This document shows positions 1,444 through 23,034 of a DNA stretch of 36,009 bases, piece by piece. The notes beneath the pieces were generated by a model. It made no database searches and was not told the origin of the DNA. It worked only from the letters and a program-made list of their open reading frames with translations. The translations under genes and the position numbers were made by a program. Origin of the DNA: a virus; IMG/VR virus record IMGVR_UViG_3300025418_001023, positions 1-36,009 of that record. One strand, written 5' to 3'. The first letter of the stretch is position 1. The number at the start of each line of letters is the position of its first letter.

Positions 1444-4400
1444 TTATAACTCCGCGCTAAAGCCAATATAGGCATTTGTTGAATTATTACCGATTGGTCC
1501 ATAAGGACGATATTGAGTAAAACCTGTTCCCGTGAGTTTTACTGGCACTACATTCAATGAACCGTTACCCATTGTGGCAGCGGAAATAGCGATTACAGTT
1601 CCATCATCTGCGGTCACTGCTAGGTTTGCATAATCAACAGCCGTTGGAGTAATTCGTAGCGAAACGGGTACAGATATATTTGTCACGATTTGAGTCGTAC
1701 TGGTTGCGCTTCCCCACGGAGCGATATATCCGTAAGCATAAGCAGGGTTTGTATTACGGTAATAGTACCTCTGGCAAGCGGCTAACTCCCCCTGAAGTGT
1801 TCCAGTAGCAGTTGTGAATGGTGTTGCCACGCTACCTGCTTCGGCCTGAACGCCCCAAAGGTCAATGTTTACACCAGTTCCGCTATATCCAAAGAATATT
1901 GATAAGCAACTACCAGCACCAATAGTTTTGCCACTTATTGACGGCAAAGTAATTGTCAATGAATATCTTGCCCACGATGTAGTAAGAGAAACATTGCCAG
2001 CGACATTTGTTACTTGACTACTTCCGCCAGTTCCAAAAATTTGATTTACTTGTAAGCCCATTGATATTGCACTTGATGCTTTTGCCCAAAATGAAATAGT
2101 CATAGTCTGGCCAGCAAAAGTACGAACATCCTCAATTCTCTGCTCAACCTGAGTCTGAGTATTGGTTGCAGACATTCGCAGGAAATATGCGCTTTCGTAC
2201 CCTGCTACTGGGGCAGTGCCAGCAGTGAAGGCTTGTTGGGAAATAGTTGTAGTTCCGCTATAACCGTAAGTTGCCCAACGGTCTGCTGTATAAACAAACG
2301 ATGCGCCAACGCTAAAACTTGTGCCTCTCTGCCAGATGCTAAAGTCACCGTTCAGAATCTTATTACGGCCCGCAACAAAAGTTGGGCCAGACCAAGCAAC
2401 ACCAGTTGCGCTAGAAGAGTTTGCAACGAGTGTGCTGCCATCGGCTCCCACCGGAAGGTTTGTAACCGAACCAGATCCTGTACCGACCACGAGGTCAGCC
2501 TTAGCTGTCACGGTAGCTATTGGGATGGCGTTAGCTACGGCAAAGTTGTTTGGAGAAGCTACGACGGCTGAATCTCCGGCCACCAAAGCTGTTAAACCGG
2601 TGATAGAAGTGCCCGTAGAAGCCGTGTAATCGGTTCCTCGGACCAATCGAACGCCGTTTATGTATACTTCTTCGGCTCCGACCGTGTAGGTCAAGCTGGT
2701 CGAGAAGGAATCTGTACCAGAAAGGCTGGTTTCTCCACCTGAAGCGGTATAACGCCAGGTCTGAACGCTTACAGTTCCGGAAGGTCCAGTAGCACCAGTC
2801 GCGCCGGTTGCACCAGTAGGTCCAGTAGCTCCGACCGGTCCAGTAGCTCCGACGGGTCCAGTAGCACCAGTGGCACCAACTGCTCCATTCGAGCCAGTAG
2901 CTCCGGTTCCACCTGTTCCACCGGTTCCGCCTTGTGGTCCAGTAGCACCCGTTGGTCCGGTTGGACCAGTAGCTCCAACTGCACCGTTTGAGCCAGCGGC
3001 TCCGGTTCCACCAGTGCCTCCAGTGCCTCCAGTTACGCCTGTTGGACCAGTAGGTCCTGTCGCGCCTGTTGCACCAACTGCACCATTAGAACCAGCAGCA
3101 CCAGTTCCTCCGGTACCTCCGTTTGCACCTGTAACACCAGTTGGACCAGTAGGTCCGGTAGCTCCTGTCGCGCCGACAGCGCCGTTCGATCCGGCAGCTC
3201 CTGCGGCACCGGTTCCACCGGTACCACCAGTTCCACCTTGAGGTCCAGTTGGACCTGTAACACCAGTCGGTCCGGTTGCGCCAGTTGCGCCGACAGATCC
3301 GTTTGTTCCGTTAGCTCCTGCGGGACCAGTAACACCAGTTGCACCAGTTGGACCAACAGGACCAGTGGCTCCGACAGGACCTGTAGCTCCAGTTGCACCA
3401 ACGGCACCGGCAGCACCAGTTCCTCCAATTGCTCCAGTGGCTCCTGTAGCTCCAGTGGCTCCAACAGGACCTGTAGCGCCGGTGGCACCTGGTACGCCAG
3501 TTGGACCAACGCCGCCAGTTTGAGCGAAAGTGATTGAGTCAGTTCCGATGATGATGTAACCGTTGGTTCCAGTTCCGACGTTATTTTGAATCCAGTTTGT
3601 GCCAGATTGAGTTAAACCTGAAACGACATAGAGATAGTCGCCGTATTCAACTTCGCCAGCAATGGAATTGTTGTAATCGGTTGTACGAGTCAAAATGTAT
3701 GGACGACCCGCAGGGTTGTTCTTTCCTGCATCGGTAACAATATAAATACCGTTTTGTGTTGCAGTGGTCTGGTTTTTAACTAAAACACGATCATTTACCG
3801 CAACGTTTACGCCGTCAATTGTTGCAATTCCGTTTGATGAACCAGTAAGTGTTGCACCAATTCCATAGCCACCGCCCGCATCGGCAGATCCAGCGGTATA
3901 AGTAGCAGAAAGATTTGCAGTTGTACCAACGCGAGCAGAAGCGTGAGCGTTATTTGATGCTAATGGACCGGTGGCTCCGGTTGCACCTGTTGGACCGGTA
4001 GCTCCGGTAGCACCAGTGGCTCCAGTCGCTCCGGAAACGCCGTTTGATCCGGCAGGACCTGTGGCTCCAGTCGCTCCGGTTGGACCAGTCTGCCCGATTG
4101 GACCGGTTGCTCCAGTTTGACCAATACCTGTGGCTCCGGTTGATCCGGTAGCACCTGTTGGACCAGTGGCTCCGATTGGACCTGTAGGTCCAGTTGCTCC
4201 TGTTGCACCTTGAGGTCCTGTAGCTCCAACTGGACCTGTAGCACCAATTCCACCAGTAGCACCAATTCCACCAGTAGCACCAATTCCACCAGTAGCACCG
4301 GTTCCGCCGGTTGCACCCGTGCCACCAGTTCCTCCAGTGCCGCCGGTTCCTCCGGTAGCACCGACTGGACCTGTTGGTCCTGTAGGTCCTGTAGCTCCAG

Positions 4401-4623
4401 GGGTTAATGAGATTGTTGCAATTGTTGTATCAACTGCATCTAAACGAGCTCTGACGCTTGCCTTTGTTCCCTTAGGGAGTACTCCCAGCTCAGTTTCGAT
4501 AGCATGAATCGCATCATTTGCGTTAGCATGCTGAGTGTGATGGGGAACCGTTGCGGAGTCAAGGGTATCCGTTGCCTGTGGATCGACAAATGAATCGATG
4601 CCGTTAGGATACGAAGATGTCAC
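1444..4623 (-). CDS. Large collagen-like virion fibre (1059 aa)
   Basis: Residues 1-74 form an anchor domain ([28 protein letters not shown]) common in fibres of actinobacterial and aquatic phages. Residues about 75-220 and 371-614 are Gly-X-Y collagen repeats rich in GATGPTG and GPVGATG. A beta domain with an NDRVLVKNQ motif (about 221-370) separates them. A short beta domain follows (about 615-690), then a receptor-binding-type domain from about 750 to the end, shared with the 346-aa protein. The product is expected to be a long trimer with triple-helical shafts. The gene lies after the capsid gene and a glycosyltransferase rather than in the tail cluster. ATG at 4623 has AAGGAG upstream. 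The repetitive shaft invites length variation. Confidence 0.9.
4241..4294. repeat. Three perfect tandem 18-bp repeats in the collagen shaft
   Basis: The unit gcaccaattccaccagta occurs three times without mismatch at 4241-4258, 4259-4276 and 4277-4294. Read on the minus strand it encodes repeated Gly-Ile-Gly-Ala-Thr-Gly units. Identity at the DNA level, in a region where codon choice otherwise varies, suggests recent slippage or unequal exchange that changes shaft length in steps of six residues. Confidence 0.9.
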
Positions 4624-7025: not shown

Positions 7026-8441
7026 TTAACCCTTACGCTTTACGCGAAGGGAATACTGATTGAAGCGAAGAGCAAGCTTACGCTTAGCAAGTTCAAGGTC
7101 TTCGGCTTCTGCTTCAGCGCTTCGTGCGCCAATGCTTGTTGAGTCGTAAGCAGGCCAAGTTACGGCTGATACCTCGTAAAGATCAAGATCAGTCAGCGTA
7201 CGTAGTCCATCTTCTTTTGTCTGTCCATCTGCACCGACTGAAAACGCGAATGACATCTTGTTGACGTCGCCGCGCTTAATGGCTGAGAAAAGTTCCTGGG
7301 CACGAGGATTTTGTGGGTCAAGATCTGCTTCCATAAGCAAACCTTGTGCATCTTCTGACAAGCGCATTGTTCCGCTTTGTGTTGATGCTAGAGGAATTCC
7401 CTCTGTGTCATGGTTAATCAAAAGAAACACCGCGTTGTCTTCTGACAGTGTGCGAGTAAAAGCTCCTGGAGCGATAACCTCGCGGAAGTTTAATCCTGTC
7501 GCTTCGCGGTTGAATGTTGCCGCATAACCAGCAATCTTAAAGTTTGCGTCTTCCTGATCTACTGCGCGAATCTCGGCATCCATTGTGATGCGCTCGGCGG
7601 TACGGATCATTGTTTTACGCTCTTCGACCATTGTCATATCGGCCTTTCTTGGGGATGGAAGTGGCTTGATGATGGTCAAATAGTTTGAGCGGTGAACGTT
7701 CACTTGATCGCTTGCAACCCAACCATTACCTGATTCTTTGTAAACGCGCACATGGAATACAGGATTATCATCAGTGGCTTCCATTGTATAGCCATCGGAT
7801 GAAGAAGCTGTACCTCTTGCAGTAACTTTTTCTACGCGACCGCGTGAGCGACCGGTAGATGTTGGCCATGAAACATAAGTTCCTTCACCAACTCGAGCCG
7901 AAGAAACTCGCTCTTCTTCTGAATCATCTGGGAGGAATTCAGCAGTTTCTGGATTTGCATTGTGTGCAATCCAAGCATCTTCGCTGTCCTCATCGTCGTC
8001 AAGCATCTTTGTTGCAGGATCTGCAGCTGAGTTTTCTTCAGTGTCGTCATCTGGATCGGTAAGACCAAGAGCGTCAATCACTGGGTCAAGAGCAAGATCT
8101 GCAGCACAGATTAAATAATAAGCTTGAGCGATAATCGGATCGTTGTCCATGATTGTTGCGAGAAGGGCTTGAGCTGCATCTATTGACGCATCTGCAGCCA
8201 TGACGCCGTGAAGCGCGTCTCCGTCACGTAGTTCAGCCATTGTTGGATTGCCTTCCATTATTTCTACTGCGCGCTGTTCCGCAGAAGCGATGATTTTGTT
8301 TGTCCATTCAAGCGTGCTGCTTCCAAATGAGCTATCGCGAATTTCATAAATGTTCGCAATGCCTAGAAAATCTGGAAGCGTTACCCCTGATGCGACTGCT
8401 TCATCTCGCACCGCTTTTGGTGCTCGGAATGTTTCAGCCAT
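7026..8441 (-). CDS. Prohead protease (U35 family) with long N-terminal extension (471 aa)
   Basis: Residues about 270-471 match the HK97 prohead protease family: IAGYAATFNREATG, REVIAPGAFTRTL, the His in LLINHD, the Ser in KMSFAFSV and SAVTWPAYDSTS. The first 268 residues are unusual: a helical segment, a very acidic linker (residues 128-178), and a small beta domain (about 183-258, VGEGTYVSWPTSTGRSRGRV) resembling DUF2945. An internal in-frame ATG at 7637, behind AAAGG with 5-base spacing, would give a normal-sized 203-aa protease. It overlaps the portal stop by one base. Expected role: cleave the capsid delta domains during prohead maturation. Confidence 0.88.
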   Translation of the reverse strand: MAETFRAPKAVRDEAVASGVTLPDFLGIANIYEIRDSSFGSSTLEWTNKIIASAEQRAVEIMEGNPTMAELRDGDALHGVMAADASIDAAQALLATIMDNDPIIAQAYYLICAADLALDPVIDALGLTDPDDDTEENSAADPATKMLDDDEDSEDAWIAHNANPETAEFLPDDSEEERVSSARVGEGTYVSWPTSTGRSRGRVEKVTARGTASSSDGYTMEATDDNPVFHVRVYKESGNGWVASDQVNVHRSNYLTIIKPLPSPRKADMTMVEERKTMIRTAERITMDAEIRAVDQEDANFKIAGYAATFNREATGLNFREVIAPGAFTRTLSEDNAVFLLINHDTEGIPLASTQSGTMRLSEDAQGLLMEADLDPQNPRAQELFSAIKRGDVNKMSFAFSVGADGQTKEDGLRTLTDLDLYEVSAVTWPAYDSTSIGARSAEAEAEDLELAKRKLALRFNQYSLRVKRKG

Positions 8442-9655
8442 TATTCGATCACACCCATAATTGGAGGTTGGATGTCTCCATCTGAACCAAGGCTAGGAAC
8501 CTGTCCGCCAGCTGTTACGCTGCCGGTAAGAGCCTGGTTAAAGACATCGCCACCGTCGTATGTTTCGTAACCTTCCATAACACGGACTTCATTAGGTGTA
8601 CGAGCACCCATTTGTACGTGAAGAAGGTTAACCTTTGCGCGGCTAAGAGCGTCTGAGCGAAGAAGGTGAGAAGTATCAAATACAACGTCGGTACCTTCTG
8701 GGAAAAGCTGAGATAAACCAACCTCAAGGCGGCGAAGCCACGGCATGATGGTGTGAGTTAAGAAGTTGATCGAGGCTTGCTCAACGTTCTGATATGTCTG
8801 ATTGTCGCCAGAAGCCAAGATCAAATGTGAGGGAATGCGGAAGACACGAGCGATGTCGCGGATGAGCTGTTCGCGGGTCTCAATCATTTCCATGTCGGCA
8901 GCGGAAGTTGTAATTGGCTTCCACTTAAGACCGTCTGAGAGAACCGCTGGGAGTCTGTGGCGGCGATGAGTGTTCATGAAGGTATCGCGAACCTGAGCTG
9001 CTTGCTCGCGTGTTAGCTTCTGATCAGTCTCAACAACCGATGAAGGTGTTGCGCCCTCGCCGTAGAACTGTCCGATGTGACGGTCCATAGCCATTGCGAT
9101 ACCGATTAAGTTACGGTTTTGGATCATTGGCGAGACGCCCACGAGGGACTGAGGTGGTGTTATCCAACGAAGGTGCATAAGCTCGTCGGAAGCAATTTCA
9201 TTTCCTAGGTGGAGATACTTACGGCCGATTTGGTCGCCGGTTGGTAGTACCTGCATCTGGTATGGGTGAAGTGGGACAAGGCCGATAATGTTTCCGCGCT
9301 TGTCAACATCTTTGTGCACATAAGCGTTACCGTGCAAAGAAAGCGAAAACATGATCTGGTGAATAAGCTCAAACATGTTTGACTCTGGGTCTGGATACAT
9401 CAAAACATCCGGTAATCCAACCGAGACGCGCTTACCATTCTTGATCTTGTAGGCACGAAGTGGCAGCGAAGCTACGGTGTCCGAGAGTAAGGAGACGCAA
9501 CCGAGAACTGCGGAAATTCCAAGGGCTGACCACTCGTCAATGCGCTCACCAGCGGCAGACGTAATGTTAGTCTGGCCATAAAGCTGCGAAAGCGGAGCGA
9601 CGTAGTTGTTGAATTGGGGATAACGTCCAACAATTCCACGCGTGAAGATACTCAT
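8441..9655 (-). CDS. Portal protein, HK97 family (404 aa)
   Basis: Forms the dodecameric ring at the capsid vertex through which DNA is packaged and the tail attached. Family hallmarks: an N-terminal ALGISAVLGCVSLLSDTVASL helix region, YPDPESNMFELIHQIMFSLSLHGNAY, PLHPYQMQV, and RVFRIPSHLI...NVEQASINFLTHTIMPWLRRLE. Length is typical for the family (about 400). ATG at 9655 overlaps the stop of the small membrane protein (ATGA). It sits in the canonical order terminase - portal - protease - capsid. Confidence 0.94.
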   Translation of the reverse strand: MSIFTRGIVGRYPQFNNYVAPLSQLYGQTNITSAAGERIDEWSALGISAVLGCVSLLSDTVASLPLRAYKIKNGKRVSVGLPDVLMYPDPESNMFELIHQIMFSLSLHGNAYVHKDVDKRGNIIGLVPLHPYQMQVLPTGDQIGRKYLHLGNEIASDELMHLRWITPPQSLVGVSPMIQNRNLIGIAMAMDRHIGQFYGEGATPSSVVETDQKLTREQAAQVRDTFMNTHRRHRLPAVLSDGLKWKPITTSAADMEMIETREQLIRDIARVFRIPSHLILASGDNQTYQNVEQASINFLTHTIMPWLRRLEVGLSQLFPEGTDVVFDTSHLLRSDALSRAKVNLLHVQMGARTPNEVRVMEGYETYDGGDVFNQALTGSVTAGGQVPSLGSDGDIQPPIMGVIE

Positions 9656-9819
9656 TCAGAACCTACCGATGCTAGAAACGAGAGTGCCAATGTTGCTACT
9701 CCTGCCGCGATGAGACCTGCGCCAACACCAAGCAAGACAGCAATTCCAGAAACAATCAAACTTGCTCCGACTACCTCAGCGATAGTCGTCATCAAATCCA
9801 AGGTTAGTCGGAATTTCAT
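9652..9819 (-). CDS. Small membrane protein between terminase and portal (55 aa)
   Basis: The start at ATG 9819 is chosen because it follows TTGGAGGGGAAAA; the longer upstream frame has no such site. After a short N-terminus the protein is a nearly continuous hydrophobic stretch, TIAEVVGASLIVSGIAVLLG followed by a second AGLIAAGVATLAL segment, so one or two membrane helices with a small loop. It overlaps the terminase C-terminus by 44 bases in another frame. Small membrane proteins at this site recur in actinobacteriophages; function unknown. It is unlikely to be the holin, given its distance from the lysins. Confidence 0.75.
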   Translation of the reverse strand: MKFRLTLDLMTTIAEVVGASLIVSGIAVLLGVGAGLIAAGVATLALSFLASVGSE

Positions 9820-11389
9820 TTTTCCCCTCCAAGTCATAAAGGTTAAAGGCAGCTGGTAGGAAATCTCCTTGACCAAACCACCACGTTGCGCGTTCGAGTG
9901 CCATGACAGAAGCGACTGCTAAGTCAATCCGTCGAGTGGATCCTCGTTTTTCTTTTGCCAATCGACTGCCGCGCTGGTCAACGCGAAGAGTTGCGTTACC
10001 CACGTGTCTAGCAAGTTGAGGATCTCCGTTGTGTGTGAGTTGTTTGTTAACAACCGCCTCAAAGAACCGAGTGGTTGCAGGTGTCATACGTGATGCTGTC
10101 TGCGGGAAAGTCACAACCGGCAAACCCTCGTCTTCGAGAACCTGAAAGGTTCTGGCCCAACGGTAAGGGTCGCAGGCAATTTCAACGACGTCGTAACGAC
10201 GGCACGCTGCACGGATAGCTTCTTCAACTTCCATGATCGGAACTTGCCAGTCTGCTCCGGCTTCTTCTGGTTTTTCCCAGACGTTTAGCGGAACAATATG
10301 CGGTGTCTCATCGCAGGTGACCGCGACAATTACCGTGCAGTCTCCGTTGAATGATCCGTCAAATCCAAGAACGATTTTTGTATTTTCTTCGAGGCCAAGT
10401 GGAGAAGCGCAAGCGTCCCAAGAGCCATGAGGCAACCAAGTATCAGACGTCGACGTCCAAACATTTAATCTCTTTGTCTTGAATTCAGCTTCTGGGGTCT
10501 GCAGTACCGCAGAGGCGAAATCATCTTCAGCAACAATGTCATTAAAACCTGGGTTTGCAGTTTCCCAAGCTAGTTTGTCCCGATAATCAAGATCAGGATT
10601 TGCTTCCCACCAAGCAAAGTAAAAGCTTGGGTCAACAACTTCTCCGCTCGCTACGCGCTTTCCGTATTCGTAGAGCTGGTAGCACAGCGAATCTTTTCCG
10701 CTGGAATCAACCTTGACCCCTGCGGTTGTAATAGCTACAAGCAATGGTTCTTTACGAGCACCCATTGCCAAAGACATAACGTCAAAAAGTTCACGGTTTG
10801 GCTGAGCGTGAAGCTCATCAAAAGCCACGAAGGTCGGTGATAAACCTTCCTTTGTGAAGGCTTCTGCCGAAAGAGCCCGATAGACTGAACCAGTCTTTGG
10901 ATTGTAAATAGCGTCTCTATATACATCGAGAATCTCTGATAATTCGGGCTGCATTTCGACCATGCGCTTGGCAGTGCCGAACACGATTTTTGCTTGTTCT
11001 TTTTCTGCTGCGCACGAATAGGTTTCCCCACCTGTTGGACCCAGGACCAAGTGCTCAAGGGCTAGCGCCGACAACCAAGCGGACTTGCCATTCTTACGAG
11101 GCAAGCCGATCAGCGCGCGCTTATGCTTGAGCGAACCGTCAGGTCGTTCTGCAAATAATCCTCTTGTTAGCTCCGACTGCCAACCGCGAAATACCAGCGG
11201 TTCACCAGCAGCTCCAGCTACTGAGTCTTTTGTGATTGAGCACAAAGTCTCAGAGAAGTCAATGATGTTTTGACCGCGACTTCGCTTAAGCTCATCAGCA
11301 CTGACCGGAGATACGTATCTCGGCGGCCAGCCTTTAATTTGTTTTGCGTTCGTTCCTCTTTTGGAGGAGTTGGTCGATTGCGCTGACAC
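9776..11389 (-). CDS. terL: Terminase large subunit (537 aa)
   Basis: ATP-driven DNA packaging motor and headful/cos nuclease. Walker A-like GLPRKNGKS (residues 95-103), Walker B with catalytic acid VAFDELHA (Asp191-Glu192), coupling motif AITTAG (about 219-224), and nuclease acidic residues in LGFDGSFNGD (Asp344), CDPYRW and RRIDLAVASVMA. Length fits HK97-type Terminase_1 enzymes. The start is GTG at 11389 behind AGAGGTGAAAC, overlapping the small subunit by 56 bases, which suggests coupled translation. The lack of any frame break indicates a functional motor. Confidence 0.95.
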   Translation of the reverse strand: MSAQSTNSSKRGTNAKQIKGWPPRYVSPVSADELKRSRGQNIIDFSETLCSITKDSVAGAAGEPLVFRGWQSELTRGLFAERPDGSLKHKRALIGLPRKNGKSAWLSALALEHLVLGPTGGETYSCAAEKEQAKIVFGTAKRMVEMQPELSEILDVYRDAIYNPKTGSVYRALSAEAFTKEGLSPTFVAFDELHAQPNRELFDVMSLAMGARKEPLLVAITTAGVKVDSSGKDSLCYQLYEYGKRVASGEVVDPSFYFAWWEANPDLDYRDKLAWETANPGFNDIVAEDDFASAVLQTPEAEFKTKRLNVWTSTSDTWLPHGSWDACASPLGLEENTKIVLGFDGSFNGDCTVIVAVTCDETPHIVPLNVWEKPEEAGADWQVPIMEVEEAIRAACRRYDVVEIACDPYRWARTFQVLEDEGLPVVTFPQTASRMTPATTRFFEAVVNKQLTHNGDPQLARHVGNATLRVDQRGSRLAKEKRGSTRRIDLAVASVMALERATWWFGQGDFLPAAFNLYDLEGKNEIPTNLGFDDDYR

Positions 11390-11798
11390 GTTTCACCTCT
11401 GCTACCCCTAGTCGCGAGCGTGACACCGGATCAAACCCAAGCGAAGCTAGGGCGTCGGTGAATGCTTTGTTAATCTGTACGTAAGCTCGACCATCAGCCG
11501 AGTCCAGCGTTGCCATGTACTTGGTCCTGGCGGCGGTTACCGCGTCGGCAAGTTTAGCTGTGTTCTCGATTGCGGCCATGTCCGAATGCGGCGACAACCA
11601 GCCGATGGCGTTGTCCCAGATTCGATTCCAAAAAATCTTACCATCCTCACCAAGCATTGCTGGTGGCTCTGGAGTTTTGTCCGCTGCTGGCAGCAAGACG
11701 ATGTTCTCAAGTTCCTTCAAGCGACGGCCTCCACTATCAAGCCCTGGCGATCGCCCTGTAGCTCTTTTGATTTCCGCCGGTTTCGGTGGACGTCCCAT
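11334..11798 (-). CDS. terS: Terminase small subunit, P27-like (154 aa)
   Basis: DNA-recognition subunit of the packaging terminase. The N-terminus GRPPKPAEIKRATGRSPG and the later PAMLGEDGKIFWNRIWDNA are hallmarks of the P27/phage_terS family of actinobacteriophages. The C-terminal half is helical and ends in a basic tail that probably contacts the large subunit. ATG at 11798 is chosen because AAGGGGGATTTGAG precedes it; a start nine codons upstream would lack a ribosome site. It is preceded by an HNH gene, the usual partner at the packaging end. Confidence 0.88.
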   Translation of the reverse strand: MGRPPKPAEIKRATGRSPGLDSGGRRLKELENIVLLPAADKTPEPPAMLGEDGKIFWNRIWDNAIGWLSPHSDMAAIENTAKLADAVTAARTKYMATLDSADGRAYVQINKAFTDALASLGFDPVSRSRLGVAEVKRVSAIDQLLQKRNERKTN

Positions 11799-11942
11799 CT
11801 CAAATCCCCCTTGGTCCAAGTCCATTTCGTAATTTTGAGCGTGCGCGTAAAAGACGGAGGCGAGGGGTCATGAGCGATTTTCTAGGAAAATTGACCAGGC
11901 TGGGGCCTTATTTTGTTATTTATATGATAGTGCCTGATGTTT
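11799..11942. other. Gap between HNH and terS: candidate cos/packaging region
   Basis: No convincing gene lies in this 144-base gap. It holds the terS ribosome site, a GC-rich tract (gacggaggcgaggggtcatg) at 11853-11872, and an imperfect palindrome attttctaggaaaat centred near 11885. In HK97-like actinobacteriophages with an HNH-terS-terL order the cohesive end usually lies just here. That is family knowledge; the exact nick sites cannot be read from sequence. A short plus-strand frame in the gap is judged spurious. Confidence 0.35.
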
Positions 11943-12266
11943 TCACTTGTCTTGCTTGCGACTGTTGCATGATCTGCAGCAGGCTCTTAAATTAGCTGGG
12001 TCTAGACCTAGCGCCCTATCCTTCGAAATTGCTATGACATGATCTACAGTTGCATCAGCGCCAGCTAGTCGCTTCTCACATATGTAACATGTCCAGTTGT
12101 CTCGCTCTAATACTGTGCGTCGTATGGCCTGCCATCGACTACCGTACCCACGCTCCGTAGTATTTCTCTTTGGTCGTGGTGGATGAGCGATTAAATAATT
12201 ATTAGCGCAGCGATCGCATCGTGTATTCGGTCCAGGTAGACCGCAGTCAATACATGGTTTACGCAT
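11943..12266 (-). CDS. HNH endonuclease (107 aa)
   Basis: Zinc-binding Cys pairs at the N-terminus (CIDC, CDRC) are followed by the HNH core: WTCYICEKRL, VDHVIAISKD, DPANLRACCRSCNSRK. The length and position just before terS match HNH proteins that work with terminase in cos cleavage and packaging of HK97-like phages. The start overlaps the stop of the Ntn-hydrolase gene (TGATG), so it is translationally coupled. It could instead be a free-standing homing-type HNH, but the compact operon placement favours the packaging role. Confidence 0.9.
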   Translation of the reverse strand: MRKPCIDCGLPGPNTRCDRCANNYLIAHPPRPKRNTTERGYGSRWQAIRRTVLERDNWTCYICEKRLAGADATVDHVIAISKDRALGLDPANLRACCRSCNSRKQDK

Positions 12267-12832
12267 CAGCGATATTGGATAACAGTTTTAATTTCTCCGC
12301 CTGTGAATGCGTCATACTTTGCAGAGATTTCAATTGCTCGCTTAATAAGTATTTCTACATCTTTAACAATGCACAAATCAAAGCTGTCAATCAAAGCTTC
12401 TAACGCACCCATTGCAAAGCGTTCGCCAGAACCTGCAGTGTAAGTGTTATTTGTTGCTCGCTCAAACGAATAATCTTCGTCGATTCGATAACATTCACCA
12501 TTTATTGCAACAATCCAAATGTTGTCATTTTCAGCTGATGAATCACTGCGTTTAACTTCGTAACCGTGTTCATCAAATAATTTTCGCATTGCTGGAATTA
12601 AAGTTTTAGCAATGTAACGATCTGTATTTGATCGTCCAACTTTTGGCGCAACAAAATTATGTTGTAAAAGATTTATTCCACGAACTGCGCCTGCGCCTGC
12701 GATGATAACGCCGTTGTTGTTAAAAATCTTTCCGTCAGGAATGTCAATTGAAAATCCGTCTTCACCAGAGCTTTGTGAATCAGCTCCAATAATGACAAAG
12801 TTTTTGGTCTGAATGGCAGCTAGCGTTGTCAT
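12266..12832 (-). CDS. Proteasome beta-like Ntn hydrolase (188 aa)
   Basis: The mature N-terminus would be Thr after Met removal (M-TTLAAIQ). Numbering that Thr as 1, the family catalytic residues fall in place: Thr1, Asp17 in IIGADS, Lys34 in DGKIF (Lys33 in 20S beta and HslV), and the Ser in GSGERFAMGALEAL. The glycine-rich AGAGAV strand is also present. Length is close to HslV and short beta subunits. No ATPase partner is visible. It is first in the HNH-terS-terL string, downstream of a promoter candidate. Possible roles: degrading host proteins, processing virion proteins, or poisoning the host 20S proteasome by mixed assembly; none is proven. Confidence 0.82.
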   Translation of the reverse strand: MTTLAAIQTKNFVIIGADSQSSGEDGFSIDIPDGKIFNNNGVIIAGAGAVRGINLLQHNFVAPKVGRSNTDRYIAKTLIPAMRKLFDEHGYEVKRSDSSAENDNIWIVAINGECYRIDEDYSFERATNNTYTAGSGERFAMGALEALIDSFDLCIVKDVEILIKRAIEISAKYDAFTGGEIKTVIQYR

Positions 12833-12898: not shown

Positions 12899-12928
12899 TT
12901 TATACCATAAATGTCCAATTTATGTTAA
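12899..12928 (-). promoter_or_regulatory. Promoter candidate for the packaging/capsid operon
   Basis: On the minus strand TTAACA (12923-12928) and TATAAA (12899-12904) are spaced by 18 bases, each one mismatch from the sigma-70 consensus, and an upstream TGG gives an extended -10. It overlaps the stop codon of the preceding gene and faces the Ntn-hydrolase gene 67 bases downstream. A small CCCCGGCGGGG inverted repeat follows the -10. Confidence 0.45.
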
Positions 12929-13549
12929 ATTGTCCGGACTTTGCTTCTTCGGCGTTTCGTGCAAGCTACCTGCCAGGATGCCAAGCGTATCTTTGCCCCA
13001 AACAGCCTCGCATTTTGTACATTTAGCTGAAATTGGTCCATAAATGTCCATGTTGACAATAATGGAGTTTTTTTGGCCACAATGCGGACAAAAGCCTTTA
13101 ATTCGACGCGGTTTATCCTTCCAGGTCAGTTTTAGCTCCACCTGGTTGCGAAAGTCATGAACCCGATCTGAAATGTGCTCAACGAGCTCATCGGTTCCGG
13201 TTACTAGCAGGTTTGGTAGCTGATAAAAGTTCTCCCGGATGTCCGAGAACACGTTTCCGCCCGCCATCAGGCTTAAATTGACGCTCATTTGCGCCGCGAG
13301 TACCAACAGTCCCAACATGTCATCGCCAATGGGTGCTCTAGAACTGGCGAGGATTGATTTAGAGACACTTTCTCCTTCAGGGCCAGACGTAGCCTCATAA
13401 ATCTCATCATAGAGCTGTTCTAGCAGTCCTGGATGCTTAGAAACGTGTGTCTTACCGTTATCCATAGATTCCCGGTGTTCGTAGTACCGGGCAAGGTGCG
13501 AAACGTCGTCAATCAGACGCTCCATCAACTCAGAACGGGATCGTGGCAT
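12920..13549 (-). CDS. Hypothetical protein with C-terminal zinc ribbon (209 aa)
   Basis: ATG at 13549 follows AAGGAGAACCGAAAA and is preferred to starts further upstream that lie inside the previous gene without ribosome sites. The N-terminal 130 residues are mostly helical and unrecognised, and include a hydrophobic patch (MLGLLVLAAQMSVNLSLMAG) that looks like a buried helix. The C-terminus carries CPHCGQKN...CTKCEAVWG, a four-Cys zinc ribbon. It follows a second zinc-ribbon gene and precedes the packaging operon. Nucleic-acid binding is plausible but unproven. Confidence 0.75.
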   Translation of the reverse strand: MPRSRSELMERLIDDVSHLARYYEHRESMDNGKTHVSKHPGLLEQLYDEIYEATSGPEGESVSKSILASSRAPIGDDMLGLLVLAAQMSVNLSLMAGGNVFSDIRENFYQLPNLLVTGTDELVEHISDRVHDFRNQVELKLTWKDKPRRIKGFCPHCGQKNSIIVNMDIYGPISAKCTKCEAVWGKDTLGILAGSLHETPKKQSPDNLT

Positions 13550-13838
13550 TTTTCGGTTCTCCTTTGCAGTCATGAAGCGAGACGACCAGGGGTTGTGGAT
13601 CGTTGATGGTTTTTTTAATTGTCTCGGGAAGTCGTAGCTTTGCTTCAGCATTTCCATACCGAGTTGTGATTTGAAAACTTGACCCACCTCGTAGCAAGTT
13701 TTCAAGCTCCTCGTATTTCGACATCAGTAGCCGATTCAGCCTGACCCGGAACCCGCCGGCATGACAGTCCCAGACAGTGGCGCCGCAGCGAGTGCAGACC
13801 GCCTCAACTAGCGCCGTTGTCTTGAATGGCTCTGACAT
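13530..13838 (-). CDS. Zinc-ribbon-like protein (102 aa)
   Basis: CTRCGATVWDCH near the N-terminus plus a late VSLHDC give a possible Cys4/His zinc site. Similar short proteins are common in replication regions of actinobacteriophages (recollection). ATG at 13838 is preceded by GGAGGTTTTT. Its ribosome site lies within the CCTCCGGGAGGAAC sequence that also carries an outlying copy of the iteron-like repeat. It overlaps the next gene by 20 bases. DNA binding is a guess from the zinc site. Confidence 0.75.
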   Translation of the reverse strand: MSEPFKTTALVEAVCTRCGATVWDCHAGGFRVRLNRLLMSKYEELENLLRGGSSFQITTRYGNAEAKLRLPETIKKTINDPQPLVVSLHDCKGEPKNATIPF

Positions 13839-13847
13839 AAAAACCTC

Positions 13848-14021
13848 CGGGAGGAACTTTTGGATTTTTAGCTACTTCGGTTGTTGTCTGAATGTTTTTG
13901 GTTGCTCCCACTCCGTTCCTCCCCCTAGGGAGGAACGGGAGCAGCGGGAGTAACCTAAAACTCACTATTCAGAGGTTGCTCCCGGGAGGAACTGGGAGTA
14001 ACTGGGAGCAGCGGGAGCAAC
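13848..14021. repeat. Iteron-like cluster of GGGAGnArC 9-mers
   Basis: Direct copies: 13928-13936, 13937-13945 and 13946-13954 are exactly adjacent (GGGAGGAAC, GGGAGCAGC, GGGAGTAAC). A second group lies at 13984-13992, 13994-14002, 14004-14012 and 14013-14021, with an outlier at 13848-13856. Inverted copies at 13901-13909, 13915-13923 and 13975-13983 (GTTGCTCCC or GTTCCTCCC) let each group fold into a hairpin. The second group fits a G3-N7-G3-N7-G3-N6-G3 quadruplex pattern. It straddles the 3' end of the prim-pol/helicase gene and the gap after it. Best guess: replication origin iterons. Confidence 0.7.
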
Positions 14022-16166
14022 CCCCCAGTCCGGCTGGCTAAAACCGGCCGAAAAGCTGTCCGAAAGTGGGTCCAATTTGGCGTCGTAGAGCTTTACGAAC
14101 CCGATGCGACGAGCGGAATTACGCGATTCGCCGTCCCGGGATTCGGTTAAAAATAGCTCTTCAACCAGGATGTCGATAGCTAAACCGACAGCCTGATCTT
14201 TGCCTTTGACAGCCTTAATGACCTCGTTTCGGGACGGTGCCTCATCTCCTGACCAGTCATGCACAAATCGAGAAACACGCTCCATCAGCACAGTCGGACG
14301 CATCCGGCCGTCGCTAGACATAGACGGCATGTCAACGCTCCATTTGGTCATGGTGGTGTCCTGGGAGTCCAAAACGAACGTTCCAGCGTGCTTTCCTGGC
14401 GAAACCGATCGAAGTCCACCATTACGGTCTTTTTCGATGGTCAGGCTGATCTTTCCGAGCTTTCCAGGAGCTGGAGCCATCAGCACCTCCGCCGAGAGAT
14501 AGGTCCCGTCAATGGCACGCTTCTTGGCAGTACCGCCAATGGCGTAGCCTGACTGCCTGGCGTCAATACCCTTCGGTAAGTGGTCAATTGTGATGACGCA
14601 GGCGCCAATTGTGTGAGCAAGTGGCTTGCAGACAGCTCGGAGTGCCTTGGTGATGTCATCGTTGTCAGTGGACTTCAGTCCCAACATAGGGACCAGCTCA
14701 CCGACGGAGTCAACGACAGCTATTTCAGGTTTCCACTCGATCATGTCATGGATGAAGAGCCGAAGACCGTCGATGTCCTCAGGTTCTGCAATCTTGAACA
14801 TGTTCGGGTTGGCAATGCAGGCTATCGGAGCACCAAGGGCGACAAGACGCATAGCTATTTCAGCCGATCCGTTGTGGTCGATATCAAGGTACACGGCACG
14901 GCGGTTCTGGTGCAGCGCCTCTACGACCGCGCACATCGCGAGCCACGATTTCGCTGTTTCAGGGTCGCCGAAGATTCCGTTGATTCTGCCGTTGTAGAAC
15001 AAGGCAGTACCATCGGAACGTTTGACCCAAGCAGGTGGCTCGATCTCAGGTGGTGTGCCACGAAGGAGCCATTCAAGGTCGGCATAGATTGACGTCTCAA
15101 CGTCGGGTTGTTCACTGCCTGGGACTGTTTTATTGTCCGGAGCTAGAAACTCTTCGACGCTGAACTCAAGACCACGTAGCTTTCCGTCGCAGTCTCGGCC
15201 ATTGCAGCGTTCTTTTGGTTGCATCTTTGCAAGGATGATCGAAATACCGCCGAGCAACATGCGCTTCCACTCGAGCTCTGCAGATGTGGTTCCACGATCT
15301 TGGCCAATAACGTCAACAAATTCGCTTGCAACACGCTGAAGCGCATATCCAACACCTTGGTGACCAACTTGGCCAAGACGCAAGAGTCCCAGCATGAGGT
15401 CTCGAACAGCGTCATGGCGTGAGCCAGATCGGCCTGAGAGCGCCTCTTCTATGTCGTATAGCTTTCTGTTCACCATTGCGCACGGCTGATCCGGTGTGCA
15501 CCATTCGGCAAAGGCAACAGCCATTTCCTCGGCGTCAGTGTCCAGGCGCTGAGTTGCCGGCGTTGCCGCTTGTCCCTTCGTAAGACCTTGGACCCAGGCA
15601 GCAGGTAGCTCTGGAAGTTGGTCTAAATGAGGACCCGCGCCGATGGTGTCTTGGTTTTCAGGTCCGATCCAACGATACGTGCGACCTTCTGGGTGCAGAG
15701 ATGGCCAAACAACCGCATAACGGTGACCTCGGTGGATGGTTTCAATGCCAGGACCAACTTGGTTTGGCCACTGAAGACCTGTCGGTACCCGGTAGAACCT
15801 AATGCCACTGATGCCATCGTCTCGCGACGTTACTCGCCAGGTTTCAGGCAGTGGACCGAATGTCGCGATGCCTTTAGCTAGCGATTCCATTCCAGACTTT
15901 TCGCCGTAGGCGTCAACGTCGATGCCCAAAATGTTTGCGGGCATGCGAAGGGCAATGTTGCCACGTCCTTTGGTTTCAATCCATTCCTGGATTTCCGATG
16001 CGTCCGGTGAAATGTCGTAAAACCGCTTGCCTGTGTAACCAGTTGGCGGATGAGATTTCTTGCCTGGCGGAAGGGGTAGGACATCTGACCATCCCAGCTT
16101 TCGATAATCCCACGCCGCTTGTGCGTAAGGACCGTCGACTGGTGTGGTCTCCTCGTCAGGCATCAT
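13965..16166 (-). CDS. Bifunctional primase/polymerase-helicase (733 aa)
   Basis: Main replication protein. Residues about 12-180 form an archaeo-eukaryotic-type prim-pol domain, with the metal pair in LGIDVDAYGE (Asp83, Asp85) and an IRFYRVP...HRGHRYAVVWPS region. Residues about 390-600 form a RepA/RecA-like AAA+ helicase: Walker A GIFGDPETAKSW (around Lys406), Walker B EIAVVDSVGEL, then TIDHLPKG and a GGTAKK motif. The tail from about 630 is a winged-helix-like region. ATGATG start with AAGGGGATTAG before it. The last codons (YSQFLPGATSE) are written in the iteron-like repeats. Confidence 0.9.
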   Translation of the reverse strand: MMPDEETTPVDGPYAQAAWDYRKLGWSDVLPLPPGKKSHPPTGYTGKRFYDISPDASEIQEWIETKGRGNIALRMPANILGIDVDAYGEKSGMESLAKGIATFGPLPETWRVTSRDDGISGIRFYRVPTGLQWPNQVGPGIETIHRGHRYAVVWPSLHPEGRTYRWIGPENQDTIGAGPHLDQLPELPAAWVQGLTKGQAATPATQRLDTDAEEMAVAFAEWCTPDQPCAMVNRKLYDIEEALSGRSGSRHDAVRDLMLGLLRLGQVGHQGVGYALQRVASEFVDVIGQDRGTTSAELEWKRMLLGGISIILAKMQPKERCNGRDCDGKLRGLEFSVEEFLAPDNKTVPGSEQPDVETSIYADLEWLLRGTPPEIEPPAWVKRSDGTALFYNGRINGIFGDPETAKSWLAMCAVVEALHQNRRAVYLDIDHNGSAEIAMRLVALGAPIACIANPNMFKIAEPEDIDGLRLFIHDMIEWKPEIAVVDSVGELVPMLGLKSTDNDDITKALRAVCKPLAHTIGACVITIDHLPKGIDARQSGYAIGGTAKKRAIDGTYLSAEVLMAPAPGKLGKISLTIEKDRNGGLRSVSPGKHAGTFVLDSQDTTMTKWSVDMPSMSSDGRMRPTVLMERVSRFVHDWSGDEAPSRNEVIKAVKGKDQAVGLAIDILVEELFLTESRDGESRNSARRIGFVKLYDAKLDPLSDSFSAGFSQPDWGVAPAAPSYSQFLPGATSE

Positions 16167-22491: not shown

Positions 22492-23034
22492 TTATTTTTC
22501 GGTGGCTAGTTCTCCACCAAGACCCATGTAAGCAGCGCCATCGATCCATCCATCTAGCTTTTCTGGACTCTGAACGAGACGCGCCACTTTCACTTGATTC
22601 ATGCAAAGAGCAACTTGATGCTCGACTACTTCAATTCCTAGAACAACACTCCAGAGCTTAGCTATTCGAGCAAAGTTCTCTTGTGGTGTTCCGTATTCTT
22701 GTTCCCGATCGTTGTATGTCAAACGATCAGCTTCTGCAAAGATTTCTTTGCGTTTCATTTTAGCCCCCTGGTCATCCTGTGCGCCCTTGGCTAAGTTACA
22801 AGGTGCGCACAGCGCTTGTAAATTATCCTCGTCATTGTTTCCTCCCTTAGCTAAAGGAACAATGTGGTCAATGTGATGCTCGACCTCAAACAAATCAGCG
22901 CCGCAGTGCTGGCAAACAAAAGCACAACGAGCCAAAACCCGCAGCCGGATAGTTTGAGGAAAGGACACTCTCGCTACTGGCTTTGGCTGTCGTGAGCTTT
23001 TCAGTAAAGCTTTAACATCTGATTTTAAGGACAT
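22492..23034 (-). CDS. HNH nuclease fused to a DUF6378-like domain (180 aa)
   Basis: Residues about 27-85 are an HNH nuclease (CQHCG, HHIDHIVPLAKGG, NLQALCAPCN). Residues 93-180 resemble the phage domain I know as DUF6378 (YGTPQENFARIAKLWSVVLG, QVALCMNQVKVARL, DGWIDGAAYMGL), usually a free-standing small protein. At the joint an ATG at 22758 has AGGGGG at 5-base spacing and would release the second domain alone. So one gene may give two products. The HNH half could be a homing-type nuclease or host-DNA nuclease. Confidence 0.8.
   Translation of the reverse strand: MSLKSDVKALLKSSRQPKPVARVSFPQTIRLRVLARCAFVCQHCGADLFEVEHHIDHIVPLAKGGNNDEDNLQALCAPCNLAKGAQDDQGAKMKRKEIFAEADRLTYNDREQEYGTPQENFARIAKLWSVVLGIEVVEHQVALCMNQVKVARLVQSPEKLDGWIDGAAYMGLGGELATEK

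Follow-up and report, generated by a model that had tools for sequence, protein, structure and literature searches.

A proteasome-like peptidase in an actinophage, part of a branch that looks restricted to phages

The viral DNA analysed here (a single stretch of 36,009 nucleotides, hereafter the window) encodes a proteasome-like (Ntn hydrolase) peptidase subunit of 188 amino acids, read from an ATG start on the minus strand at 12266..12832. The assignment draws on Pfam (PF00227), PHROGs (phrog_1040), an AlphaFold2 model and the match of that model to the betaproteobacterial proteasome homologue BPH (PDB code 5ovs). The best-supported reading is of a self-assembling peptidase with no unfoldase of its own, in favour of which stand an intact active site, the missing AAA+ partner, an acidic segment after the second helix and gene neighbourhoods that are mostly linked to replication. 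We consider it fairly probable that the protein acts as such a threonine peptidase in infected actinobacterial cells, the likeliest time being around genome replication. The window and isolated phages of Arthrobacter and Microbacterium show that actinophages carry proteasome-like genes and that these form a separate branch with hardly any members in bacterial genomes.

Active site and family membership

The protein begins MTTLAAIQ (Met-Thr-Thr), the ATG codon directly preceding that of the predicted nucleophile, Thr1 (residue 2; 12827..12829, minus strand). With Thr as second residue, removal of Met1 is predicted, exposing Thr1. Numbered from this Thr, the remaining active-site positions are Asp17 (residue 18, in the sequence GADS; 12779..12781, minus strand), Lys34 (residue 35, in PDGKIF; 12728..12730, minus strand), which aligns with proteasome Lys33 given one inserted residue, Gly47, which aligns with the oxyanion glycine, and Ser134, which lies within AGSGER and aligns with proteasome Ser129. 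The GSG motif around this last residue (residues 134-136; 12425..12433, minus strand) is conserved in the alignment. Asp166 is present as well, and Ser169 is replaced by Thr. A sequence-only reading of this DNA had proposed both the open reading frame and the set Thr1, Asp17, Lys34 and GSG serine; the former proved real and exact in its limits, and alignment to proteasome positions bears out the latter.

The homologues found by two IMG/VR scans came from considerably more than a hundred contigs, and 123 of the genes (75 + 48) were examined. Position 2 is Thr in 75/75 and 48/48 of these, so that the loss of Thr1 which the same reading had named as a check was not seen, and position 18 is Asp in 123/123. 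In the wider alignment the Thr1 position holds T or S in 41/41 rows, Asp17 is invariant (41/41) and so are both glycines of GSG (41/41). Among the rows of the actinophage clade, Gly47 is kept in 26/26, the central GSG residue is Ser or Thr in 26/26 and the Lys33 equivalent is K in 25/26, the exception (L062) having a K two positions away, probably through an alignment shift. For computable pairs, dN/dS values were 0.02-0.29; these concern relatives in general and not close relatives of the window gene, whose only near copies, in L001 and L002, encode identical proteins. The window gene is intact and, as judged from its relatives, under purifying selection. A decayed gene was rejected on the retained active site and the low dN/dS of the relatives.

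The Pfam Proteasome model (PF00227) reaches 25.6 bits (cut-off 22.4), its match being confined to the C-terminal third of the protein. In PHROGs, phrog_1040 (‘peptidase HslV family’) matches at 1e-26, covering peptidase residues 1-186 and profile positions 14-156 of 277. When a profile of the peptidase family was compared with solved structures, HslV ranked first (7.7e-15), followed by BPH (3.5e-12) and eukaryotic beta5 (2e-7), an order that corresponds to the ‘group I’ pattern (PMC8665760). In sequence, then, the peptidase is HslV/BPH-like rather than PrcB-like. Identity with true HslV was nevertheless rejected, the equivalog models NF003964 and TIGR03692 giving 18.1 and 16.4 bits against cut-offs of 137 and 157.75 and HslU being absent. 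True PrcB was likewise rejected, as there is neither a propeptide before Thr1 nor a paired alpha subunit (PrcA): a search of the window with PF00227 for a second proteasome-type subunit returned the single match already described, hence no alpha-like partner.

Predicted structure

An AlphaFold2 model, built with an alignment of 28 phage homologues, has a pLDDT of 91.9 and a pTM of 0.88 and contains a complete proteasome-beta fold. Two central β-sheets are flanked by helices H1-H4 (residues 50-59, 70-88, 137-150 and 156-173), the arrangement expected of a PF00227 member. The best Foldseek match of the model is BPH (8.8e-11). VIA-align also places BPH (5ovs) first, with a Z-score of 21.7 and an rmsd of 2.3 over 175 residues; for comparison, the archaeal beta subunit yields 20.6 and HslV and Mycobacterium tuberculosis PrcB 19.8 each. 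Comparison with the last two was the fold check proposed beforehand, and the predicted fold is indeed of the Ntn/proteasome type. Over the structural alignment, identity to PrcB is 17-18%. The earlier description, of a proteasome-beta-like Ntn hydrolase that a phage encodes and whose active site is complete, therefore finds agreement from Pfam, PHROGs and the AlphaFold2 fold alike. A chance resemblance to the proteasome was rejected on PF00227, phrog_1040, the fold, the structural matches and the residue conservation.

The segment that follows the second helix comprises 21 residues with a net charge of -3, against 10 residues in Escherichia coli HslV. The unfoldase-free BPH is distinguished by a pore loop that is long and acidic (PMC8665760), and by analogy the long acidic segment of the model would resemble BPH rather than HslV.

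Gene map of the window and identity of the phage

Nearly all genes of the window lie on the minus strand, in the order tail, lysis, nucleotide metabolism and replication, peptidase, HNH, TerS, TerL, portal, S78 prohead protease and capsid. On the upstream side are a Prim-Pol replication protein (13965..16166, minus strand; PF09250 9e-23, phrog_1156 3e-54) and, just before the peptidase, a 261-residue open reading frame with a TTG start (12920..13705, minus strand; phrog_1467 6e-5), which has no match in Pfam and whose C-terminal part reads as a zinc ribbon (CPHC...CTKC pattern). On the other side, the start of an HNH endonuclease gene (11943..12266, minus strand; PF01844 36 bits, phrog_144 5e-22) overlaps the peptidase stop by 1 nt, and translational coupling of the two through this overlap is probable. 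The small terminase subunit TerS (11334..11825, minus strand; phrog_83 8e-13), the large subunit TerL (9776..11389, minus strand; PHROGs, closest phage record phiPsal1), the portal protein (8441..9655, minus strand; phrog_12 7e-84) and the prohead protease (7026..8441, minus strand; PF04586 1.4e-41, S78 domain at residues 289-444 of 471) follow. The peptidase had been described from sequence as opening the packaging operon; the order downstream of it agrees, whereas its close relatives lie in replication or recombination blocks.

Other features of the window include the long N-terminal part to which the S78 domain (7026-8441) is fused, with a TUDOR-like stretch just below the cut-off (PF11160, 22.7 bits), a 1059-residue protein with long collagen-like GATGPTG repeats at 1444-4623, probably a tail fibre, and an HNH endonuclease fused to DUF6378 at 22492-23034 (PF19905, 4e-27). 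A scan for promoters and terminators around the peptidase gene gave no more than shuffled sequences give. Since the window was searched for a terminal repeat and none was found, the circular completeness of the genome is inferred from gene order only.

The window TerL is 51.5% identical to that of the Pontimonas (Microbacteriaceae) phage phiPsal1, its next matches being in Streptomyces phages, while the primase matches Gordonia and Mycobacterium phages and the endolysin Streptomyces and Actinomyces phages. These similarities make an actinobacterial host well supported, at a level above genus, and the actinobacterial context previously assumed is consistent with all three genes. Throughout the 36-kb window, a record that may be a fragment, the AAA+ unfoldase models all stay below their cut-offs; the HslU-type model PF07724 has no match there and the sole match of PF00004 is a sub-threshold Walker-A in a thymidylate-kinase-like reading frame. 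The earlier remark that no ATPase stands beside the peptidase gene accordingly extends to the whole window.

Gene neighbourhoods of the relatives

The genes most similar to that of the window (49-57% identity) sit in replication blocks. The nearest of them (54-57%) have the order peptidase-HNH-SSB, and a larger sister group has helicase-Toprim-peptidase-DUF1599-metallophosphatase-sigma70. WhiB follows the peptidase gene in several copies of the DSL-LC01 type, Pumpernickel has ThyX-peptidase among tRNAs, and large phages carry a copy among nucleotide and NAD genes; the DSL-LC01, Pumpernickel and jumbo-phage copies are thus found among early or nucleotide-metabolism genes. Most neighbourhoods have replication and nucleotide metabolism in common rather than virion structure. 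Pitbull has nearly the order of the window when read across its genome ends: its right end carries peptidase-gp78-HNH and its left end gp1-TerL-portal, followed by its own annotated capsid maturation protease.

Several further associations were observed. The reading frame of a histone-deacetylase-family protein (L134:5061-5984; PF00850, 2e-55) stops 16 bases short of the proteasome-like gene, on its upstream side, and a deacylase 62-100% identical to it occupies the same place in L142, L135, L127 and L072, five contigs in all; a deacylase-peptidase pair is possible in contigs of this type. In L124 (4982-5770), L125, L126 and L136, the gene is directly preceded by DpdA (7-deazaguanine DNA modification; PF23859, 3e-88) and directly followed by WhiB. 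A calcineurin-like metallophosphoesterase recurs near it in otherwise different groups (L046:4716-5921, L014:1799-2545, L021:7080-7817).

A distinct arrangement characterises phages related to ct2KA10. In 27/27 contigs of the ct2KA10/L062 type from the first scan the peptidase gene lies directly downstream of portal, itself after TerL, and L131 from the second scan has this order too; the loci concerned are L060-L069, L073-L081, L084-L091, L131 and L101:7500-8036. The predicted fold of the variant is again BPH/HslV-like. The ct2KA10 record itself reads TerL-portal-peptidase-...-scaffold-MCP and carries WhiB, for which reason it is probably an actinophage. It contains no S78 match, nor was a further peptidase recognised among the genes from portal to MCP. 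Little weight attaches to the missing protease: in many phages none is recognised, and the annotated capsid protease of Pitbull likewise escapes S78. A head-maturation role for the proteasome-like protein in such phages is possible on this gene order.

Phylogeny and distribution

In the tree, the window peptidase groups with contigs at 49-57% identity and then with the Arthrobacter phage Pitbull and the Microbacterium phage Pumpernickel, and every actinophage copy found falls in one branch. With long branches left out, this branch is separated with support of 99/98 from copies on rhizobial and Streptomyces plasmids, which are 26-30% identical to the window peptidase. The plasmid copies are probably of the AAH type, a label itself inferred in a tree that holds no published AAH representatives. 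L062 groups with the window branch, but its TerL and portal are those of the ct2KA10 type; its branch is long and its placement unsure. More distant copies, annotated HslV or protease, are present in several large phages (see also PMC7823757), and phages infecting Salmonella, Vibrio and Geobacillus have relatives too. L148 (IMGVR_UViG_3300006112_000029, 36.0 kb), whose metagenome number, 3300006112, is also that of L001, holds a far more divergent copy (28%); divergent versions of the peptidase therefore co-occur in one sample.

A peptide-pattern search recovered 166 relatives in viral contigs. With nearly the same pattern, 84,980 prokaryote species genomes gave two, both distant and gammaproteobacterial. 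Within the limits of a pattern search, which can speak for ‘rare’ and not for ‘absent’ in prokaryotes, the branch looks phage-restricted, and with the same limit these counts disfavour a host-genome or prophage gene.

Proposed mechanism and alternative readings

Under the favoured reading, methionine aminopeptidase would remove Met1 and Thr1, together with Asp17 and the Lys33 equivalent, would form the nucleophile. A ring of the BPH/HslV type would then form from this one kind of subunit, enclosing the active sites. The ring alone might cleave proteins that are flexible or in part unfolded, a mode proposed for BPH and for the 20S core without its cap; alternatively, it might borrow a host AAA+ ATPase, these being the two courses left since the phage supplies no unfoldase. 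Its place of action would be the cytoplasm of the infected actinobacterium and its time most likely that around genome replication, while its targets would be one or more host or phage proteins. The context does not single out one phase of infection, because relatives occur in several different neighbourhoods, and the position of the window gene directly upstream of HNH-TerS-TerL, and near them in Pitbull, counts against this mechanism in that it could mean a packaging-related role. As connectase and Anbu illustrate, proteins with a proteasome-like fold do not always form closed rings and may not be proteases at all (PMC8665760). Evidence of activity, oligomeric state or substrate was found for no member of the branch.

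A peptidase of packaging or virion assembly would trim or degrade phage proteins and, in ct2KA10-type phages, serve as the head-maturation protease. It would account for the run peptidase-HNH-TerS-TerL-portal in the window, for the genes at the two ends of the Pitbull genome and for the portal-adjacent position in all 27 ct2KA10/L062-type contigs, with ct2KA10 itself lacking both S78 and any other recognised peptidase between portal and MCP. However, a capsid protease is encoded separately in both the window and Pitbull, the closest relatives (49-57%) belong to replication blocks, the DSL-LC01, jumbo-phage and Pumpernickel copies are set among early or nucleotide-metabolism genes, and the S78 test is weak alone, as the Pitbull protease demonstrates; we regard this reading as unlikely. 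In the window phage specifically, a head-maturation protease was judged unlikely given the S78 prohead protease (PF04586, 1.4e-41), and the earlier suggestion that the subunit processes phage proteins loses ground here, at least for head proteins, by the presence of that enzyme and of its counterpart in Pitbull. A wider proposal sees in the branch a proteasome-like subfamily confined to phages and specialised for roles in infection, which in ct2KA10-type actinophages has taken over head maturation; it seems to us rather improbable, though if true it would make a proteasome relative the capsid-maturation protease of those phages.

Mpa/ARC docks to the alpha subunit of the proteasome. That the phage protein modifies host proteolysis, by joining or replacing host PrcB or by providing a core for Mpa/ARC-Pup in hosts without prcBA, would suit the actinophage context, and in one actinobacterial subgroup the pupylation locus persists although proteasome subunits are missing (PMC8223512). 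The profile is nevertheless HslV/BPH-like and not PrcB-like, propeptide and alpha subunit are both wanting, and relatives extend to phages of Salmonella, Vibrio and Geobacillus, so this alternative appears to us most improbable. The sequence-only reading had suggested an altered or replaced host core, for which the rank of HslV in the profile comparison (7.7e-15), the missing propeptide and alpha partner and the 17-18% identity to PrcB hold out little prospect; a mixed core with host PrcA/PrcB is not supported by the sequence. Some actinobacteria, moreover, have no proteasome core at all (PMC8223512), and the Corynebacterium glutamicum control genome has no PF00227 match, in line with such a loss. 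An Ntn enzyme that is either very specific or no protease at all (for instance a ligase like connectase, or an amidase that modifies a single protein at one site) has a precedent in connectase, a monomeric ligase with a proteasome-like fold (PMC8665760), and the HDAC-family deacylase or DpdA beside some homologues could hint at a specific modification pathway. The model, though, has all four flanking helices whereas connectase is without H1/H2, and the two-helix insertion of connectase between S3 and S4 is absent from it, leaving such an enzyme very unlikely.

For the favoured, unfoldase-free peptidase as for its rivals, the phage isolates make function testable in cultured hosts, and the portal-adjacent copies allow the idea that phage heads are matured by a relative of the proteasome to be tested sharply.

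Comparison with known systems

That phages encode proteasome-like proteins (PPH, AAH, PHROG 1040) is known already; the separate actinophage branch is newer. In the open-licence literature we found no earlier report of this branch, of the portal-adjacent variant or of a head-protease role. Fuchs, Alva and Lupas (2021; PMC8665760) described the phage-borne homologues PPH and AAH, for which neither a function nor a co-occurring AAA+ protein was found; they reported AAH from many phages and no actinobacteria-specific phage encoding it. ‘BPH’ has also been noted in a Citromicrobium phage (PMC8953757).

HslV (ClpQ), the best profile match, has the Thr-Thr N-terminus and active-site layout in common with the window peptidase, but it works with HslU, whereas the window has neither HslU nor another AAA+ unfoldase, and its loop after H2 is short. 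PHROG 1040 is also phage-encoded by a single subunit gene; its family name stems from annotation, and we found no member that had been studied by experiment. PPH, found in phages and their hosts, has about 140 residues and no helix H2 (PMC8665760); at 188 residues and with that helix retained (70-88), the window peptidase is not a PPH. AAH is group I-like, compact and phage-borne (PMC8665760), as is the window peptidase, yet the plasmid copies that probably represent AAH lie outside the actinophage branch (99/98). Within that branch are the ‘protease’ genes of the Arthrobacter phages Pitbull and Hum25, of Pumpernickel and of the Actinomycetia phage DSL-LC01, which are 31-36% identical to the window peptidase and bear the annotation protease or HslV, with no function established by experiment. 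BPH (PDB 5OVS/5OVT) provides the best structural match and shares the long acidic loop and the lack of a known unfoldase; its identity to the window peptidase is 18%, and its gene is bacterial where the window gene is that of a phage.
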